Below, piece by piece: positions 1-53,116 of a stretch of DNA of 64,000 nt. The DNA comes from Clostridia bacterium (GTDB lineage: Bacteria > Bacillota > Clostridia > UMGS1840 > HGM11507), in the NCBI GenBank assembly GCA_017554615.1, contig JAFZHY010000004.1:1-64000 (forward strand), read 5' to 3'. Positions within the stretch are counted from its first letter, which is position 1, and each line of letters begins with the position of its first letter. The notes beneath the pieces are model-generated. The model was given only the letters and a program-made list of their open reading frames with translations. It searched no databases and was not told the origin of the DNA. A program made the position numbers and the translations under genes.

Positions 1-75
1 ACTTTTATATATTTACCTATTAATTTTTCTAAAAAACCATATTTTTAGCAGGTAAAATCAATAAAAAATTACGGT

Positions 76-96
76 CGGAAAATCTTCCGTTTTTTT
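76..96 (+). terminator. Rho-independent terminator of a gene left of the window
   Basis: A 5-bp stem CGGAA/TTCCG with a 4-nt loop is followed by seven T residues. It probably ends a plus-strand transcript that starts outside the window. Bases 1-75 are stop-rich in all frames and hold no visible gene end. Confidence 0.6.
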
Positions 97-99
97 CGA

Positions 100-129
100 C
101 ACTTATAAATGACACTTATATAATAAGTG
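100..129. promoter_or_regulatory. Direct and inverted CACTTAT repeats, possible operator
   Basis: CACTTATA occurs at 100-107 and again at 113-120. The second copy forms a perfect 7-bp inverted repeat with ATAAGTG (123-129) around a 3-nt centre. This looks like a small protein-binding palindrome, but no regulator can be named. It lies directly before the periodic array at 186-482. Confidence 0.35.
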
Positions 130-185
130 GTAAAAATTGCAAAAACCGTTTAGATTGTTGTCAAATCAGCATTTCTAACAGTTTT

Positions 186-482
186 TATAAAAGAACAGAC
201 ACCTTTTATAAAACATCAGTAACTATTTATAAAAGGGCAGAACTGAAAACATAAAACTACAGAACTAAAATTATAAAAGGTCGACGGTAAAATCATAAAA
301 ATCCGTCTTTGATTTTATAAAAAGGTGGTCAATAATTTATAAAAGTCTAAATATTTTTTATAAATCTTCTGCAATCTTTTATAAAAGAATGAGGATTTAT
401 TATAATCAGTTTTATAAAAAACAAAAGAGATTTTATAAAACTTTTGATAGTTTTTATAAAACCTCTAATATTATTTATAATG
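186..482. repeat. Array of 15 TTTATAAAA-type elements at 21-22 bp period
   Basis: Elements matching (T/C)ATAAAA or TATAA(A/T) begin at 186, 207, 228, 250, 272, 294, 316, 338, 359, 380, 401, 413, 434, 455 and 476. Spacing is 21 or 22 bp throughout, except one 12-bp step (401 to 413) that splits the array into blocks of 11 and 4. Most copies are preceded by T or TT, giving a near-palindromic TTTATAAA core. The 14-15 nt between cores are not conserved, although the first four carry CAG at the same place. A 21-22 bp period is two helical turns, so the cores face one side of the DNA. This suggests cooperative protein binding or a curved or easily melted region. No gene overlaps it. Confidence 0.85.
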
Positions 483-606
483 TGTGGAACTTTGCGACAC
501 AACCAATTATGCATATGAAAATGCCTTTACAATTCAATTTCTCTTTGAGATTTCAATAAAAAGTCCGTTCCACAGAAAATCGAGTTATAGGTACATAAAA
601 TATTTC

Positions 607-635: not shown

Positions 636-643
636 AATATAAA

Positions 644-909
644 GGCTTTGACGAAGAGGGCATATTTTATGAATCTTTTAGAGAAATGACGTTTGGTGCA
701 AGTCATAGAGGACAAAATGTGTTTGTAGCTTCTGAGCCGAAAGGAAGAAAGCGTATAGCAAGTAGAACCTTTCCGTGATTGCTGCGTTAATGCATAAAGG
801 TTGTCAGACCTTGAGAGTGGCGGTTTTAATAATCGCAATTTGAGTGGTACCGCGGGTAATTTATTTACTCGTCTCAAAGTTTTATAACTTTTGAGGCGAG
901 ATTTTTTTT
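644..909 (+). ncRNA. T-box riboswitch, predicted valine specifier (GUA)
   Basis: The T-box core GAGTGGTACCGCGG is at 842-855. It is followed by a strong terminator hairpin (868-900) and a T run. Stem I closes with GGCTT (644-648) against GAGCC (734-738) and GAAG (653-656) against CTTC (729-732). Its tip is an ATGAC/GTCAT hairpin with the typical GGTGCAA loop. The triplet one purine before CTTC is GTA (725-727), the same geometry that gives ACC in the thrS T-box at 51188-51190. This predicts tRNA-Val sensing. The UGGU of the T-box pairs with discriminator A, as in tRNA-Val. The specifier loop is compact and lacks an obvious AGUA S-turn, so the codon call is less certain than the T-box call. 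Confidence 0.92.
868..909 (+). terminator. T-box regulated terminator before the ligase gene
   Basis: The stem CTCGTCTCAAAG (868-879) pairs with CTTTTGAGGCGAG (888-900) around a short AT-rich loop, and is followed by a T run. Uncharged tRNA binding to the T-box should favour the competing antiterminator. Confidence 0.9.
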
Positions 910-934: not shown

Positions 935-3226
935 ATGAAAAATATGATAATCAGTGAAAAAATCAAGGATATGGCTCGAAGAATAAAAGAGCTTCGTGAA
1001 ATTGAAAATTACACACCTGAAGAAATGGCAGAAAAAACAGGTATCTCAGTTGACGAATATCTTATGTGCGAAAATGGGGAATCAGACCTTAACTTTGCTT
1101 TTATCTACCGTTGTGCAGATGCTTTTCAGGTTAATGTAACAGATATTATAGAAGGTGTCAGCCCAAGGGTTAAATCATATACTGTTACACGTTCTGGCCA
1201 CGGTCAGCAGATTGCAAAGGCACATGATATGGTATATCATAACCTTGCATATGCTTTTAAAAACCGTATTGCAGAGCCTTTATATGTTGTAAGTTCCTAT
1301 GACGAAAATAATATCAATAAAGATATTGAACTTACCACTCATAAAGGTCAGGAATGTGATATAGTTATTGAAGGAAATCTTATGGTTCAGATTGGCGAAC
1401 ATAAGGAAATCTTAGGCCCTGGCGACAGTATTTATTATAACAGTGATACTCCTCACGGTATGATAGCAGTTAACGGAAAAGACTGTAAATTTTATGCTAT
1501 CGTTCTTAAGTCAGACGGAGTAAAAGGGGAAGATACAAATTCTGATATAGGAAGTATGGAGCAGATTATAGGAACTGTTCACAGAGATACTAAAGACAGA
1601 ATTTATCATAAATTTATTGATATAGTAGAAGACGAACAGGGAACACCTACATCAATAACATTTAAAAACGAAGATAAGTTTAACTTTGCGTTTGACTTAG
1701 TTGACGAATTATCAAGACGCGAGCCTGAAAAACTTGCTATGCTTCATATCTCAAAAGACGGAACTGAAAGAAGATTTACCTTTACTGATATGAGAAAACT
1801 CTCCAGCCAGTGTGCAAACTATTTTGCATCTTTGGGAATTAAAAAAGGCGACAGAGTAATGCTTATTCTAAAGCGTCACTATCAGTTCTGGATAGCAATG
1901 CTTGGTCTTAATAAATTGGGAGCAATTGCAATTCCTGCAGTTGACCAACTTCACGAGCATGACCTTACATACAGATTTGATGCTGCAGGTGTAACATCCA
2001 TTGTTTGTACTAAAGACGGAGAAATTTCAGATTTTGTAGACGAAGCGATTAAAAAATGTCCTCAGGTTGTTAATAAAATGATGGTTGGGGGAGAAAAAGA
2101 AGGCTGGAGAAACTTTGACGAAGAGTATAAGAGATTCAGCACCCACTTTACAAGAAATGAAGATTCTCCTTGCGGTAATGACCCGATGCTTATGTATTTC
2201 ACATCGGGAACTTCAGGTTACCCTAAAATTGCAACCCATAATTATAAATATCCTTTAGGCCATTTTCACACTGCAAAATACTGGCATAATGTTGACCCTG
2301 ACGGTCTTCACTTTACCATTTCTGACACAGGCTGGGCAAAGGCTATGTGGGGAAAACTATATGGCCAATGGCTGTGCGAAGCGGCAACATTTGTATACGA
2401 TTTTGACAGATTTGACGCTGCCGAAATATTACCTATGTTTGCAAAACATCATATTACAACATTCTGTGCACCTCCTACAATGCTTCGTATGATGATTAAA
2501 CAGGATATATCAAAATATGATTTCTCTTCAGTTACTCATATGACTACTGCAGGGGAAGCGCTAAACCCTGAAGTTTACCGTCAATTTAAAAAGGCAACAG
2601 GTCTTCAGATTAAGGAAGGCTTCGGGCAGACTGAAAGCACAATGATTATAGGTAACCTTATCGGTAAACCTCATAAAATCGGTGCTATGGGTAAACCTGC
2701 TCCTATTTATAAAGTTGAACTTCACGATGCTGATGGAAATCAGGTAGGTACAAACGAGTCGGGCGAAATTGTTATAAATATTAAAGACGGTGCTCCTTGC
2801 GGTCTGTTTACAGGATACTATGGGGACGAAGAAAAAACAAAAGAAGTTTGGCATGACGGTTATTATCATACAGGCGACGTTGCATGGCGTGATGAAGACG
2901 GATACTACTGGTATGTTGGAAGAGTTGACGATGTTATCAAATCTTCAGGATACCGTATCGGCCCGTTTGAAATAGAAAGCGTTATTATGGAACTTCCGTA
3001 TGTTTTAGAATGTGGTGTTTCTGCTGTTCCTGATGAAATAAGGGGTCAGATAGTTAAGGCAAGTATTGTTTTAGTTAACGGTACAGAGCCGACTGAAGAA
3101 CTTAAAAAAGAAATTCAGACATATGTTAAGGAAAAAACTGCTCCTTATAAATACCCAAGAATTGTGGAGTTTAAGGAAAGTCTTCCAAAAACAGTAAGCG
3201 GAAAAATTCAGAGAAATAAACTATAA
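935..3226 (+). CDS. XRE-cupin-AMP-forming acyl-CoA synthetase fusion
   Basis: The ATG at 935 has AGGAG nine bases upstream; an earlier in-frame TTG at 908 lies in the terminator tail. The 763-residue product has three parts. Residues about 13-63 are an XRE helix-turn-helix. Residues about 110-185 are a cupin-like beta barrel (GPGDSIYYNSDTPHG). The remainder is an ANL-superfamily adenylating enzyme with TSGTSGYPK near 420, EGFGQTES near 561, YHTGD near 645 and the C-terminal SGKIQR lysine. All catalytic motifs are present, so it should form acyl-AMP and then acyl-CoA. It resembles acetyl/medium-chain acyl-CoA synthetases (ACSM type); the substrate cannot be read from sequence. A valine-type T-box controls it, which suggests a branched-chain acid such as isobutyrate (inference). 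It is monocistronic, with its own terminator. Confidence 0.88.
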   Translation: MKNMIISEKIKDMARRIKELREIENYTPEEMAEKTGISVDEYLMCENGESDLNFAFIYRCADAFQVNVTDIIEGVSPRVKSYTVTRSGHGQQIAKAHDMVYHNLAYAFKNRIAEPLYVVSSYDENNINKDIELTTHKGQECDIVIEGNLMVQIGEHKEILGPGDSIYYNSDTPHGMIAVNGKDCKFYAIVLKSDGVKGEDTNSDIGSMEQIIGTVHRDTKDRIYHKFIDIVEDEQGTPTSITFKNEDKFNFAFDLVDELSRREPEKLAMLHISKDGTERRFTFTDMRKLSSQCANYFASLGIKKGDRVMLILKRHYQFWIAMLGLNKLGAIAIPAVDQLHEHDLTYRFDAAGVTSIVCTKDGEISDFVDEAIKKCPQVVNKMMVGGEKEGWRNFDEEYKRFSTHFTRNEDSPCGNDPMLMYFTSGTSGYPKIATHNYKYPLGHFHTAKYWHNVDPDGLHFTISDTGWAKAMWGKLYGQWLCEAATFVYDFDRFDAAEILPMFAKHHITTFCAPPTMLRMMIKQDISKYDFSSVTHMTTAGEALNPEVYRQFKKATGLQIKEGFGQTESTMIIGNLIGKPHKIGAMGKPAPIYKVELHDADGNQVGTNESGEIVINIKDGAPCGLFTGYYGDEEKTKEVWHDGYYHTGDVAWRDEDGYYWYVGRVDDVIKSSGYRIGPFEIESVIMELPYVLECGVSAVPDEIRGQIVKASIVLVNGTEPTEELKKEIQTYVKEKTAPYKYPRIVEFKESLPKTVSGKIQRNKL

Positions 3227-4210: not shown

Positions 4211-5461
4211 GTGGGGGCTTTTTTTAGAAAAATCAAAAGATTTTTCAAACAAAACAGGTACTACATAGCAATAATTCTTGTTTTTTTACTTATTGCACTT
4301 ATTATTGCAGGAATTATTTTAGGCATAAATCAGGGGAAAGAGGAAAAACAGGCTAACAAAGAAAAAATAGCAGTAAACGAATTTTTACAAAATGTTAAAA
4401 ATTTAAGCGACGGATATTTTTATCAGGAAGCAATAGATTTAATTGATAATTCCAAATATGTAGGGAAAGAAGAAGTTATAGCCTTTAGGGATGAACTTTT
4501 GTTAAAAAAGGATAATCAAAAAGAATATAACGGTCAGGTTTACCATGTGTTTTTCCATAGTCTTATCGTTTATCCTTCCCTTGCATTTGATGGGGACTTT
4601 ATGCACGAAGGCTATGATATGTGGATGACTACCGTATCTGAATTTAAAGCAATGCTTCCCCAACTTTATGAAAGAGGTTTTGTTCTTTATAATTTATCGG
4701 ATATAAAGGAAGGCGAAAAGATATTTCTTCCTGAGGGTAAGAAACCTCTTATAATCTCTATTGACGATGTTAATTACTATGAATATATGGAAAACGACGG
4801 TTTTTCTGACAGGCTGGTTGTAGATAACGATGGCAAGATTGCAACAGAGGTTAAAACGCCGACAGGCGAAAAGGTTATTACATATGACGGAGATGTTATG
4901 CCGATACTTGATGCCTTTGTTAAAGAGCATCCCGATTTTTCATATAGAGGTGCAAAGGGTGTTGTGGCAGTAACAGGATATGAGGGTGTTTTTGGATATA
5001 ACTATGAAAACGAATCTCTTAGCGAAGAAGAAAGAAACGCTCTTATGCTTAAAGCAAAAGAAGTTGCACAGGCACTAAAAAATAATGGATGGCTTATTGC
5101 CTGTCACAGTTATACACATAACAGTTATTTTTCTGATGGTAATGTAAGTAATGAAGACTTAAATTATGATACTAACCGTTTCAGAGAGAGAACTTCTGAG
5201 TGGGTGTTAAACCCTGATATTTACATAAGTCCGTTCGGATATCATCTTTTAGAGGGGGACGAAAGGCTTAAATATCTAAAAGATATGGGATATAATTATT
5301 TCTGTCCTGTAAGCCCTGCAATGAGAACTTTGTTTTTAGAAGAGGGCGTTGTAGTTTCAGAAAGATTTAATTTAGACAGATATAATATGAGAACAAAAAA
5401 GGAATATATTAACGAAACCTTTTTTGATGTAGACAGTGTGTATTATAAGCAGTCTTTATAA
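4211..5461 (+). CDS. Membrane-anchored polysaccharide deacetylase
   Basis: The 416-residue protein starts at a GTG preceded by GGGGG. A basic N-terminus and one hydrophobic segment (about residues 17-39) form a signal anchor, so the enzyme should face the cell wall. The NodB-like catalytic part has the metal motifs SIDDVNYYEY (variant of TFDDG) and CHSYTHNS (HxxxH), plus SPFGY. Such enzymes (carbohydrate esterase family 4) remove acetyl groups from peptidoglycan or other wall glycans. The first motif is divergent, so the substrate is uncertain. It lies 21 bp after the nif3-like gene and 21 bp before a permease gene, in an apparent operon. Confidence 0.78.
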   Translation: MGAFFRKIKRFFKQNRYYIAIILVFLLIALIIAGIILGINQGKEEKQANKEKIAVNEFLQNVKNLSDGYFYQEAIDLIDNSKYVGKEEVIAFRDELLLKKDNQKEYNGQVYHVFFHSLIVYPSLAFDGDFMHEGYDMWMTTVSEFKAMLPQLYERGFVLYNLSDIKEGEKIFLPEGKKPLIISIDDVNYYEYMENDGFSDRLVVDNDGKIATEVKTPTGEKVITYDGDVMPILDAFVKEHPDFSYRGAKGVVAVTGYEGVFGYNYENESLSEEERNALMLKAKEVAQALKNNGWLIACHSYTHNSYFSDGNVSNEDLNYDTNRFRERTSEWVLNPDIYISPFGYHLLEGDERLKYLKDMGYNYFCPVSPAMRTLFLEEGVVVSERFNLDRYNMRTKKEYINETFFDVDSVYYKQSL

Positions 5462-5482
5462 ATAAAAAAGGGAGAACAAAAA

Positions 5483-6496
5483 ATGAAAAAAACTGGTATG
5501 TTTATATTGGGTGTTGCTATCTGTATGGTTGTAGCAATATTATCTATTATTCTTGAAAGGGTAATCCCCGGAGAACTTTTAGGTTCTTCGATTATTGCTC
5601 TGTTTATGGGAACAATAATCAATAGTTTTTTCCATCCGAACTGGATAAAACCGGCACTTAAATTTACATCCAAAAGGATACTTAAGGCAGCCATTGTTTT
5701 ACTTGGTGCATCTTTATCTATTGGTACCATTATGACTGTTGGTAAAATGACCTTTTTTGTAATGATTTTCACATTTGCTATGTGTTTTGGCGGTGGGTTC
5801 TTTGTTCGAAAACTTTTTGGGCTTAACTGGAAACTAAGCAATTTAATTTCAGCAGGAACAGGAATTTGCGGTGGCTCGGCTGTAGCGGCTATTGCACCTG
5901 TTATAGATGCCGATGATAAAGATATAGCATTTGCTTTATCTTCCACATTTTTATTTGATATGGTAATGGTTGCATTATATCCTGTTATGGGGAAATTTTT
6001 AGGTATGACTGACATTGCCTATGGTATCTGGGCAGGAACATCTGTAAATGACACAGCAAGTGTGGTTGCTTCAGGATATGCTTTTTCAGAGGCAGCAGGG
6101 GACTTTGCAACAATGGTTAAACTTACCCGTACTATTGCAATCATTCCTACGGTATTGGTGTTTGCATATATTGGCACACGCATTAAACAAAAAGAATTGC
6201 AAACAGTGGGCGAAGGCAAAAAAGTAAGTATTATGAAAATTATTCCTTGGTTTATTGGTGGTTTTTTACTATTGGCAATAGCAAACAGTGTTGGACTTAT
6301 TCCGTTAGGTGTATCTAATATTATGAAAACTCTAAGTAAATTCCTTATGGTATCAGCATTGGCTGCTATCGGTCTTGGCACCAGCCTTGCTGACTTTAAG
6401 AAAGCAGGACTTTCGCCAATGTTTTACGGAATAACTATTGATACACTGGTAACATTGACAGCGCTTATAGTTATTTGGTGTATGGGTCTTATGTAA
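5483..6496 (+). CDS. YeiH/UPF0324 family membrane protein (putative exporter)
   Basis: The 337-residue integral membrane protein has about ten hydrophobic helices and the family signature region with GTGICGGSAVAA and GTSVNDTASVVA. UPF0324/YeiH proteins are often called putative sulfate exporters, but the substrate is not well established. The start ATG at 5483 has GGGAG upstream. The length is normal for the family and no truncation is seen. Its neighbours (deacetylase, lipoprotein, metF) do not fix a substrate, although the methionine genes downstream make a sulfur compound a reasonable guess. Confidence 0.82.
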   Translation: MKKTGMFILGVAICMVVAILSIILERVIPGELLGSSIIALFMGTIINSFFHPNWIKPALKFTSKRILKAAIVLLGASLSIGTIMTVGKMTFFVMIFTFAMCFGGGFFVRKLFGLNWKLSNLISAGTGICGGSAVAAIAPVIDADDKDIAFALSSTFLFDMVMVALYPVMGKFLGMTDIAYGIWAGTSVNDTASVVASGYAFSEAAGDFATMVKLTRTIAIIPTVLVFAYIGTRIKQKELQTVGEGKKVSIMKIIPWFIGGFLLLAIANSVGLIPLGVSNIMKTLSKFLMVSALAAIGLGTSLADFKKAGLSPMFYGITIDTLVTLTALIVIWCMGLM

Positions 6497-6532
6497 TAAT
6501 AAACAGGATGAGTTTATAGAGGTAAAAATAAA

Positions 6533-7048
6533 ATGAAAAGAATACTTATATTAATTACATTACTGTCTATATTCTTCCTTTGCTCATGTGAAACAAAAAA
6601 TTTTCAACAAGAGTCAGACATAAATACAAGCGAAGAGAAAGAATTAATAAGTGAGAAACTTTTACATACCATTGAGAGTGAATATAAAAAAGAATCAGAA
6701 TATGAAAGATATTTAACAACTGCAGGAATGATAGAACTTGCTAATAAGTATAAAAATAAGTGGGATGCAGTATCTGATGAATACTATGAAAAAATTATAT
6801 CAGTTACAAAAGAAAATTTTAAAGATAAAAAGGATGTTATTTTAGAAAAACTTAATAACTTAAAAGCATCATATGAAGAATATGAAAAAAGTAATTTAGA
6901 TTTAAAAAAAGAAATCTACAGTTTAAAATATTCGGGTGGAAGTATTATCGGCCCTCTTTGTGCAAATGAATTATATGAATTAAGAAAGAACTATGCATTA
7001 GAAATTGTAGATATCTATGAAAAATTAACATTTGATATGGAGTATTAG
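6533..7048 (+). CDS. Small predicted lipoprotein, unknown function
   Basis: The 171-residue product starts with a type II signal peptide: MKR, a hydrophobic stretch and the lipobox LCSC, so Cys19 should be lipidated by Lgt and cleaved by LspA (lspA is at 35730). The mature part is highly charged, rich in Lys and Glu, and predicted mostly helical; it is probably an extended surface protein. I recognise no domain. It lies between the YeiH-type permease and metF with gaps of 36 and 33 bp, so co-transcription is likely but a functional link is not evident. Confidence 0.7.
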   Translation: MKRILILITLLSIFFLCSCETKNFQQESDINTSEEKELISEKLLHTIESEYKKESEYERYLTTAGMIELANKYKNKWDAVSDEYYEKIISVTKENFKDKKDVILEKLNNLKASYEEYEKSNLDLKKEIYSLKYSGGSIIGPLCANELYELRKNYALEIVDIYEKLTFDMEY

Positions 7049-7081
7049 TGATGAAATAAATTGTAAGGGAGATAGGCAATT

Positions 7082-37137: not shown

Positions 37138-37283
37138 GTGTTCGAGGGATAAATCCCACACATAGATTTAAGACCTTTAAATTAGTCCCGAGAGGCTGAT
37201 AAGGCGATATTATAATATGGTTATAATACTATCTTTCTACGATTTTATAATACCGTTTATCAGCAGATAAACGGTATTTTTTT
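37138..37283 (+). promoter_or_regulatory. PyrR-responsive attenuator leader
   Basis: The conserved PyrR-binding loop AGTCCCGAGAGGCTGATAAGG-type element spans 37184-37204. A small GGGAT/ATCCC hairpin precedes it, and a strong terminator (37250-37283) follows. In this system PyrR with UMP binds the anti-antiterminator hairpin, lets the terminator form and lowers transcription of the operon when uridine nucleotides are plentiful. Confidence 0.9.
37250..37283 (+). terminator. Attenuator terminator of the pyrimidine operon
   Basis: ATACCGTTTATC pairs perfectly with GATAAACGGTAT around an AGCA loop, followed by seven T residues. Confidence 0.92.
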
Positions 37284-37297
37284 AACGGAGGATTAAT

Positions 37298-51090: not shown

Positions 51091-51097
51091 AATTTTA

Positions 51098-51346
51098 ATA
51101 GCGATGATGAAGACAGTAGCAATCTATGTGTTATACCCAGAGAGGAAAACCGTGGCTGGAAGTTTTCCTGTAACAAGATTTGTGAACACCACTTCGAAGC
51201 TGCAAATGTGAAAGGAAATCTTAGTAATGTTTGCCGTAACCTTTCGTTAAAGGAAATTTAAGAGGCGAAATTTATCGCAATCAGGGTGGAACCGTGCGTT
51301 TTTATGCACCCCTGAAAAGTCATAACAGGCTTTTCAGGGGTTTTTT
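51098..51346 (+). ncRNA. T-box riboswitch, threonine specifier (ACC)
   Basis: Stem I begins GATGAAGACAGTA with the AGUA S-turn and closes with CTTC (51192-51195). The apical loop has the classic GGCTGGAAG. The specifier triplet ACC (51188-51190) follows GAAC and precedes A-CTTC. The T-box core AGGGTGGAACCGTGCG ends near 51298 and the terminator is at 51309-51346. TGGA matches the U discriminator of tRNA-Thr. It raises thrS transcription when tRNA-Thr is uncharged. Confidence 0.96.
51309..51346 (+). terminator. T-box regulated terminator before thrS
   Basis: CCCCTGAAAAG (51309-51319) pairs with CTTTTCAGGGG (51330-51340), followed by six T residues. Confidence 0.93.
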
Positions 51347-51370: not shown

Positions 51371-53116
51371 ATGAGCGAATTAAATGAACTTCAGATTTTA
51401 AGACATAGTGCATCTCATGTGTTGGCACAAGCAGTTAAAAGACTTTTTCCGGATGTTAAACTTGCAATAGGTCCGGCGGTAGAAAACGGATTTTATTATG
51501 ACTTTGATTCCGAAACTCCGTTTACAACCGAAGTTTTAGAAAAAATTGAAGCCGAAATGAAAAAAATTGTAAAAGAAAATCTTAAGATTGAACGCTTTGA
51601 ATTACCAAGAGAAGAAGCGTTGGAACTTATGAAAGACGAACCTTATAAGGTAGAACTTATTAACGATTTACCTGATGACGCTGTTATATCTTTTTATAAA
51701 CAGGGCGAGTTTGTTGACCTTTGCGCAGGTCCTCACGTTGCATATACAAGTAAAGTTAAGGCATATAAACTTTTAAGTGCCACAGGTGCATATTGGAGAG
51801 GCTCTGAAAAGAATAAAATGCTTCAGAGAATATACGGTACTGCGTTTGCCACAAAAGACGAACTTGCAGCACATCTTACTCAGCTTGAAGAAGCAAAGAA
51901 AAGAGACCATAATAAGTTAGGAAGAGAACTTGAACTTTTCACAACATCTGATTTAATCGGTCAGGGGCTTCCTATTCTTCTTCCAAAAGGTGCAAAAATA
52001 ATTCATATTCTGCAGAGATTTGTTGAAGATACAGAAGCGGAAAAAGGATGGCAGTTAACCAAAACTCCATATATGGCAAAAAGCGATTTATATAAACTAT
52101 CAGGCCATTGGGATCACTATCAGGACGGAATGTTTATAATGGGCGACCCTGATGATAAGGAAGTTTTTGCTCTTCGTCCTATGACTTGTCCGTTCCAGTA
52201 TCAGGCATATCTTAATAAACAGCGTTCATACAGAGATTTACCGTTAAGATATAACGAAACATCAACACTCTTTAGAAATGAATCTTCAGGCGAAATGCAC
52301 GGGCTTATAAGAGTTCGTCAGTTTACTATTTCAGAAGGGCATCTAATGTGTACTCCTGACCAGTTGGAAGCAGAATTTAAAGGTTGCTTGGAACTTGCAA
52401 TTTATATGCTTAAAACATTAGGTCTATATGAAGATGTATCATACAGATTTTCTCAGTGGGACCCATCAAATAAAGAAAAATATATCGGAACTTGCGAACA
52501 ATGGAATGAAGCACAGGGCATAATGGAAAAAATTCTTAACCACCTTGATATTCCGTATAAAGTAGGGGTAGGGGAAGCAGCATTCTATGGCCCTAAACTT
52601 GATATTCAGATTAAGAATGTTCACGGTAAGGAAGATACTTTAATAACAATACAGATTGACCAGTTACTTGCCGAAAAATTCGGTATGGAATATGTGGACA
52701 GCGACGGAACAAAGAAAAACCCTTATATTATCCACAGAACTTCTATCGGCTGTTATGAAAGAACTTTAGCGCTTTTAATAGAAAAATATGCAGGTGCATT
52801 CCCAACATGGCTTGCTCCTACTCAGGTTAAAATTCTTCCTATTGCAGAGGCTCATCATGAATACGCCAAAGAAATCGGCAATATGTTCAAAAACAGTGGC
52901 TTAAGAGTTGAAGTTGATTTAAGAAACGAAAAAATCGGTTATAAAATAAGAGAAGCTCAACTTGAAAAAGTTCCTTATATGCTCGTTATAGGCGATAAGG
53001 AAATGGAAGAAGGAAAGGTTGCTGTGCGTTCCAGAAAAGAAGGGGATAAGGGCGCAGTTTTATCAACTGACTTCTTAAAAGATATCCTTGTAGAAATTGC
53101 AGAAAAAAGATTATAA
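51371..53116 (+). CDS. thrS: Threonyl-tRNA synthetase lacking the TGS domain
   Basis: The 581-residue class II synthetase starts right at the editing domain (ILRHSASHVLAQAVKRLFP, with the HxxxH of the editing site at residues 11-15). The usual N-terminal TGS domain of about 60 residues is missing. The T-box terminator ends 24 bp upstream, so no longer reading frame exists. The catalytic core is complete: zinc ligands in PMTCPF, GEMHGLIRVRQF and the IIHRTSIGCYER segment, followed by the anticodon-binding domain. AAAGGAG precedes the ATG. Expression is under the threonine T-box. Confidence 0.95.
   Translation: MSELNELQILRHSASHVLAQAVKRLFPDVKLAIGPAVENGFYYDFDSETPFTTEVLEKIEAEMKKIVKENLKIERFELPREEALELMKDEPYKVELINDLPDDAVISFYKQGEFVDLCAGPHVAYTSKVKAYKLLSATGAYWRGSEKNKMLQRIYGTAFATKDELAAHLTQLEEAKKRDHNKLGRELELFTTSDLIGQGLPILLPKGAKIIHILQRFVEDTEAEKGWQLTKTPYMAKSDLYKLSGHWDHYQDGMFIMGDPDDKEVFALRPMTCPFQYQAYLNKQRSYRDLPLRYNETSTLFRNESSGEMHGLIRVRQFTISEGHLMCTPDQLEAEFKGCLELAIYMLKTLGLYEDVSYRFSQWDPSNKEKYIGTCEQWNEAQGIMEKILNHLDIPYKVGVGEAAFYGPKLDIQIKNVHGKEDTLITIQIDQLLAEKFGMEYVDSDGTKKNPYIIHRTSIGCYERTLALLIEKYAGAFPTWLAPTQVKILPIAEAHHEYAKEIGNMFKNSGLRVEVDLRNEKIGYKIREAQLEKVPYMLVIGDKEMEEGKVAVRSRKEGDKGAVLSTDFLKDILVEIAEKRL

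Follow-up and report, generated by a model that had tools for sequence, protein, structure and literature searches.

A helically phased array of AT-rich palindromes lies within an IS1595-family transposon of gut Clostridia

The array and the insertion that carries it

The DNA analysed here (the window) is a stretch of 64,000 nucleotides that begins within a mobile element, the start of the contig (window position 1) falling inside a transposon. The features of this element and of its surroundings are collected in Table 1. The array within it consists of near-palindromic TTTTATAAAA sites which start, in the TTTATAAAA register, at positions 184, 205, 226, 248, 270, 292, 314, 336, 357, 378, 399, 411, 432, 453 and 474, and three of them (248, 292 and 399) are degenerate. 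The successive steps of 21, 21, 22, 22, 22, 22, 22, 21, 21, 21, 12, 21, 21 and 21 bp divide the array into a block of 11 sites and a block of 4, separated by the single 12-bp step. Both the fifteen AT motifs at 21-22 bp and their arrangement in two blocks, as proposed in a preliminary description made from the sequence, are recovered in these coordinates and steps.

Table 1. Features of the window (positions in nucleotides;. denotes a feature without strand)
Feature	Position	Strand	Basis or remark
Right part of internally deleted, transposase-less IS1595-family copy, with right target duplication	1..599	.	Alignment to L009; left end on contig C25
Conserved block found after the transposase stop codon in full copies	1..125	-	Alignment to L009 5293-5416, where the block contains a terminator-like hairpin
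Remnant -35 (TTGACA) of the transposase promoter	159..164	-	Sequence and alignment; promoter intact (12/12) in L009
Site array	183..482	.	15 near-palindromic TTTTATAAAA sites, 21/22-bp steps and one 12-bp step
12-bp step joining the two blocks	399..420	.	Kept in subfamilies A and B
Right terminus; the terminal inverted repeat, CCTATAACTCGATTTTCTGTGGAA on the minus strand, has its end at 591	483..591	-	
8-bp target duplication TACATAAA	592..599	.	Partner copy beside the left end, G000:C25 (L110 6618-6625)
T-box leader	639-879		Directly upstream of the synthetase gene
HTH-cupin-AMP-binding synthetase gene	935-3226		
PyrR binding site	37170-37284		
Second T-box leader	51095-51316		Upstream of the probable threonyl-tRNA synthetase gene
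Probable threonyl-tRNA synthetase gene	51371-53116		

The spacing was evaluated against randomized sequence. A strict search of the window returned 13 sites forming 10 pairs at 21/22 bp; 2000 dinucleotide shuffles gave 0.02 such pairs on average and never more than 1, and 13 randomly placed sites gave at most 6 in 20000 trials. The phase coherence of the array is R = 0.93 at 10.8 bp per turn, and no other chain of at least three sites is present within the 64-kb window. The earlier view that AT-richness alone does not give this spacing is upheld, and equal periodicity in shuffled sequence, named beforehand as an outcome that would speak for chance, is not reproduced. Spacers inside one array resemble each other slightly more than shuffled sequence does (0.30 vs 0.26). 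A CRISPR is ruled out, as had been argued from the start, by repeats and spacers that are far too short; a coding repeat is ruled out by the many 22-bp steps, which break any frame; and an Rfam search over the array gave no match to a structured RNA.

Alignment to a complete element of the same genome (locus L009) indicates that the transposase gene and its -10 element have been deleted from the window copy, with 15 sites retained. Because these parts are missing and the first 125 positions correspond to the block that follows the transposase stop codon, the window copy is assigned as a transposase-less derivative. The left end on contig C25 is preceded by the same 8 bp TACATAAA, so the contig break most likely falls inside one insertion, of which window 1-599 and the C25 left end would be the two parts; the cargo on C25 differs. 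The transposon is inserted just ahead of the promoter of the HTH-cupin-AMP-binding synthetase gene, an unusual target for the T-box leader located directly upstream of it.

The transposon family and its array-bearing subfamilies

A search of the window's own genome recovered a second copy on contig C13, which is 90% identical to the window copy and contains more repeats. This second copy is the complete transposon at L009 (4603-7655), which has inverted ends CCTATAACTnnATTTTCTGTGGAA, an 8-bp duplication CCTAAAAT at each side, a gene on the minus strand (5420-7060) for a transposase of 546 aa, and a DUF4180 gene as passenger. Its transposase matches the IS1595-family model NF033547 of NCBIfam (77.9 bits against a cut-off of 75) and scores 16.4 with Pfam DDE_Tnp_IS1595, under the cut-off of 27. 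The N-terminal zinc-binding domain reaches 34 bits against a cut-off of 28 with NF050000, the IS1/IS1595 zinc-ribbon model, and has four Cys that are invariant in the alignment; its match to Pfam Zn_ribbon_IS1595 falls under the cut-off. Residues D176, E177 and D266 are conserved and are candidate catalytic residues only. The C-terminal extension contains a Rho_N/SAP-like stretch with sub-threshold Pfam matches only, and the corresponding domain (approximately residues 434-544 of L030, pLDDT 85 in the predicted structure) gave no match in a PDB fold search. Exact 8-bp target duplications with inverted ends were found for 16 insertions; duplications of this length are a feature of the IS1595 family (PMC8101967), and insertion sequences that carry passengers are already known (PMC7986276). 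The window array belongs to the interior of an IS1595-family transposon found in gut Clostridia and is not a stand-alone element.

The transposase gene of L009 is followed by a terminator-like stem with a T tail (RNA fold z = -2.2). This hairpin (L009 5368-5395) and its equivalents are conserved and divide the transposase from exchangeable passengers, which include DUF4180, SHOCT, XRE-like and small proteins without known function.

Genome scans identified further full-length copies with 94-97% transposase identity (subfamily A) and two full-length copies with 46-49% identity (subfamily B). Their hosts are metagenome-assembled gut and rumen-type Clostridia, and these transposons are present in several families of that class. 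Full copies of either subfamily have the array in the stretch that separates the transposase promoter from the right end; it starts about 110 bp inward of that end and reaches to 28 bp ahead of the promoter -35. Most A copies have 18-20 sites, two have 13, and B copies have 10. The promoter itself is a consensus TTGACA-17-TATAAT (12/12 match in L009), and in subfamily A the last site starts 28 bp ahead of TTGACA. Subfamily B has 21-bp spacing throughout apart from one 12-bp step, which lies in the same local sequence TTTTATAAAAccGATTATAAA as in A, and shares the promoter junction TTTTATAAAAACTGTT with A; its other spacers are unrelated. A diverged relative with unrelated spacers thus retains the spacing, the outcome that the preliminary description had asked of related genomes. 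Its statement that the array lies in a gene-free region is accurate for the window and misleading for the element, since full copies have the transposase gene about 70 bp from the array.

Distribution beyond these subfamilies was evaluated by pattern and homology searches. Distant IS1595 relatives (31-37% identity) have no array upstream of the transposase, though their C-terminal region is the same. Among 300 genomes of the phylum, a strict three-site pattern turned up in 1, the window's own, and a looser pattern occurred in 26 of 391 genomes of the class, these hits being partly minisatellites and isolated chance triples. A 22-bp repeat at L102 5560-5660 (G311:C26), degenerate and with cores of TTTATAA, precedes a valyl-tRNA synthetase gene and is probably a minisatellite because its units resemble each other. 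Neither the transposase nor the transposon ends had a relative in viral contigs, and the viral hits to the array pattern were rejected, being either tandem repeats or AT-rich matches that occur singly at 20/22 bp; plasmids contained distant IS1595 relatives only.

The class-wide search also recovered three five-site TTTATAAAA arrays with 21/22-bp steps and unrelated spacers: L095 4821-4915 (G112:C19), L096 6368-6460 (G195:C24) and L097 6352-6444 (G340:C46). They sit between serine-resolvase and tyrosine-integrase genes, in what are apparently two different integrative elements (L095 versus L096/L097). No IS1595 transposase relative was detected in these elements by tblastn, and L095 is without matching transposon ends.

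Constraint on the sites and mobility of array-less copies

Selective constraint was examined by comparing site and spacer columns in nine A copies, which are closely related and not fully independent: site columns vary by 1.8% and spacer columns by 6.9%, a difference reached by 0 of 405 label rotations. Because spacers hold more G/C, the comparison was repeated with A/T columns only in the eight A copies with the promoter -35 still beside the array, and the variation was 1.4% vs 4.3% (p = 0.006). Overall, sites vary about four times less than spacers, and the B spacers are unrelated to those of A. Recombination among the units, by making sites alike, could give the appearance of part of this conservation. 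Site changes are more frequent relative to spacer changes in transposase-less copies (27:66, compared with 23:118; p = 0.02), which suggests that constraint on the sites may be relaxed after loss of the transposase; the contrast is confounded by the junctions of deletion derivatives, which inflate the change counts.

Searches with the right terminus recovered many derivatives. Transposase-less copies that retain sites include the window copy with 15, L098, L099 and L101 with about five each, and L133 with two. Other derivatives are array-less and carry a DUF559 cassette, and four of these (L121, L122, L126 and L127) have exact, differing 8-bp duplications. Right ends of the array-less form (these four together with L119, L120, L124 and L134) are found in many Clostridia genomes, and the DUF559 gene sits in its own short inverted-repeat cassette. 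Because array-less derivatives with exact duplications exist, the array does not appear to be obligatory in cis for movement, with the proviso that any single copy could have lost it after insertion. Some array-less copies differ slightly in their right ends, and a related transposase may have mobilised them. The existence of array-less copies with exact duplications fits a control role of the array better than an obligatory role in mobility.

Interpretation and relation to known systems

Our preferred reading, to which we give about an even chance, is that the array is a cis-regulatory segment that controls the transposase promoter through phased protein binding. Because the palindromic 10-bp sites are constrained, adjacent to a promoter and phased at about two turns with indifference to the spacers, they point to a protein that reads one face of the DNA. 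Since neighbouring sites are separated by roughly two helical turns, a protein acting as a dimer or multimer could coat that face and would then control the transposase promoter, most likely by holding a strong promoter down, although repression rather than activation is a guess. The reader would be the transposase itself or a conserved, widespread host AT-binding protein, because the elements span several families and their cargo differs. The multi-site platform for a DNA-binding protein suggested in the preliminary description agrees with the conserved sites and with the spacing kept in a diverged subfamily; it missed the transposon context and the adjacent transposase promoter. Counting against promoter control are the 2-15 sites kept in some transposase-less copies, which such a role does not require.

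Those retained sites, found in several mobile transposase-less copies, would suit an array of accessory transposase-binding sites at one element end, which would enhance transposition or serve as an assembly platform, with a layout like the multi-site ends of Tn7 or Mu. The subterminal position on one side only, the palindromic and phased sites, and the fact that full copies share only the transposase gene, whose product has the sub-threshold Rho_N/SAP-like stretch in its C-terminal extension, also agree with this proposal. We nevertheless consider it unlikely, as derivatives that have the same ends and exact 8-bp duplications but no array occur in several genomes, distant relatives with the same C-terminal region are without the array, and the C-terminal domain lacks a PDB fold match. 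For these sub-threshold matches, the missing fold match and the sharing of the region by array-less relatives, the SAP/Rho_N domain was set aside as the array reader and is kept as a lead. Overlapping promoter-like motifs that trap or stall RNA polymerase and so damp the transposase, like the "promoter islands" of E. coli, are an improbable explanation: the 22-bp units form a TTTATA-18-TATAAT series on the transposase strand and promoter-dense regions can silence genes (PMC7054387), but subfamily B and the 21-bp block have TATAAA in place of TATAAT without the 18-bp series, and -10 elements are not expected to be perfect palindromes.

Two further explanations both appear very improbable. Intrinsic DNA shape, in the form of curvature or easy melting that aids the promoter or folding of the transposon end, is compatible with an array segment among the least stable 0.5% of the window and with predicted curvature above that of shuffles (ratio 0.82-0.83 vs 0.92; 0/200; an estimate from wedge parameters). 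This curvature is modest, however, a phased A-tract control being far more curved (0.26); a TpA step lies at the centre of TTTTATAAAA, and 300-400 bp exceeds the need of an upstream bend. The curved element raised in the preliminary description is only weakly supported. A decayed minisatellite without function, kept only by recombination between short AT cores, would account for copy number that shifts by whole units (20, 18, 13) and for the slight likeness of spacers within one array. It is difficult to reconcile with sites conserved over spacers even among A/T columns, with two subfamilies whose phase, 12-bp step and promoter junction persist despite unrelated spacers, and with the near-identical units of true minisatellites that match the same pattern.

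The integrase-side arrays hint that a reader protein could be shared with the IS1595 arrays. It is a doubtful, if broader, proposal that phased TTTTATAAAA arrays form a regulatory code common to unrelated Clostridia mobile elements, with an undescribed protein, of the host or of a mobile element, that would read them, coat one DNA face and control recombinase genes. An apparently orphan repeat is now tied to a specific mobile element with a testable regulatory architecture. Up to 20 near-identical palindromes, helically phased, precede a consensus transposase promoter, and subfamilies with fewer than half of their transposase residues in common retain this arrangement. Should the array be read by a protein, it would represent either an unusual form of autoregulation by the transposase or a new code through which mobile DNA is silenced in gut Clostridia.

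An insertion sequence array of this form was not found described in the literature searched (mostly non-subscription papers); an IS1595-family transposon with passengers is known, and its phased array is apparently undescribed. In common with the IS1595 family (ISPna2, IS1016 and IS1595 groups, and tIS with passenger genes), the element has the family transposase, zinc ribbon, 8-bp duplications, inverted ends and passengers; it differs in its long C-terminal extension, in ends that begin with CC, and in the 10-20 phased AT palindromes before the transposase gene. The TnsB sites of Tn7 and the ends of Mu also place several phased protein sites near one end, with conserved sites of about 22 bp, whereas here the array appears not to be obligatory for movement, the sites are 10-bp palindromes and transposase binding is putative. 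Iterons of plasmid origins likewise form a direct array with a spacing of about two helical turns. Here, in contrast, conservation is confined to a 10-bp core and the array precedes a transposase promoter; the annotated and domain-searched neighbours are the transposase and passengers, with no replication gene or replicon beside the array, and the iteron-like region of the preliminary description is therefore not supported for these insertion sequence copies. The promoter islands of horizontally acquired genes in E. coli (PMC7054387) share a run of AT-rich promoter-like motifs upstream of a mobile gene, and the present array is distinguished from them by its strict 21/22-bp phase and its conserved palindromic site.
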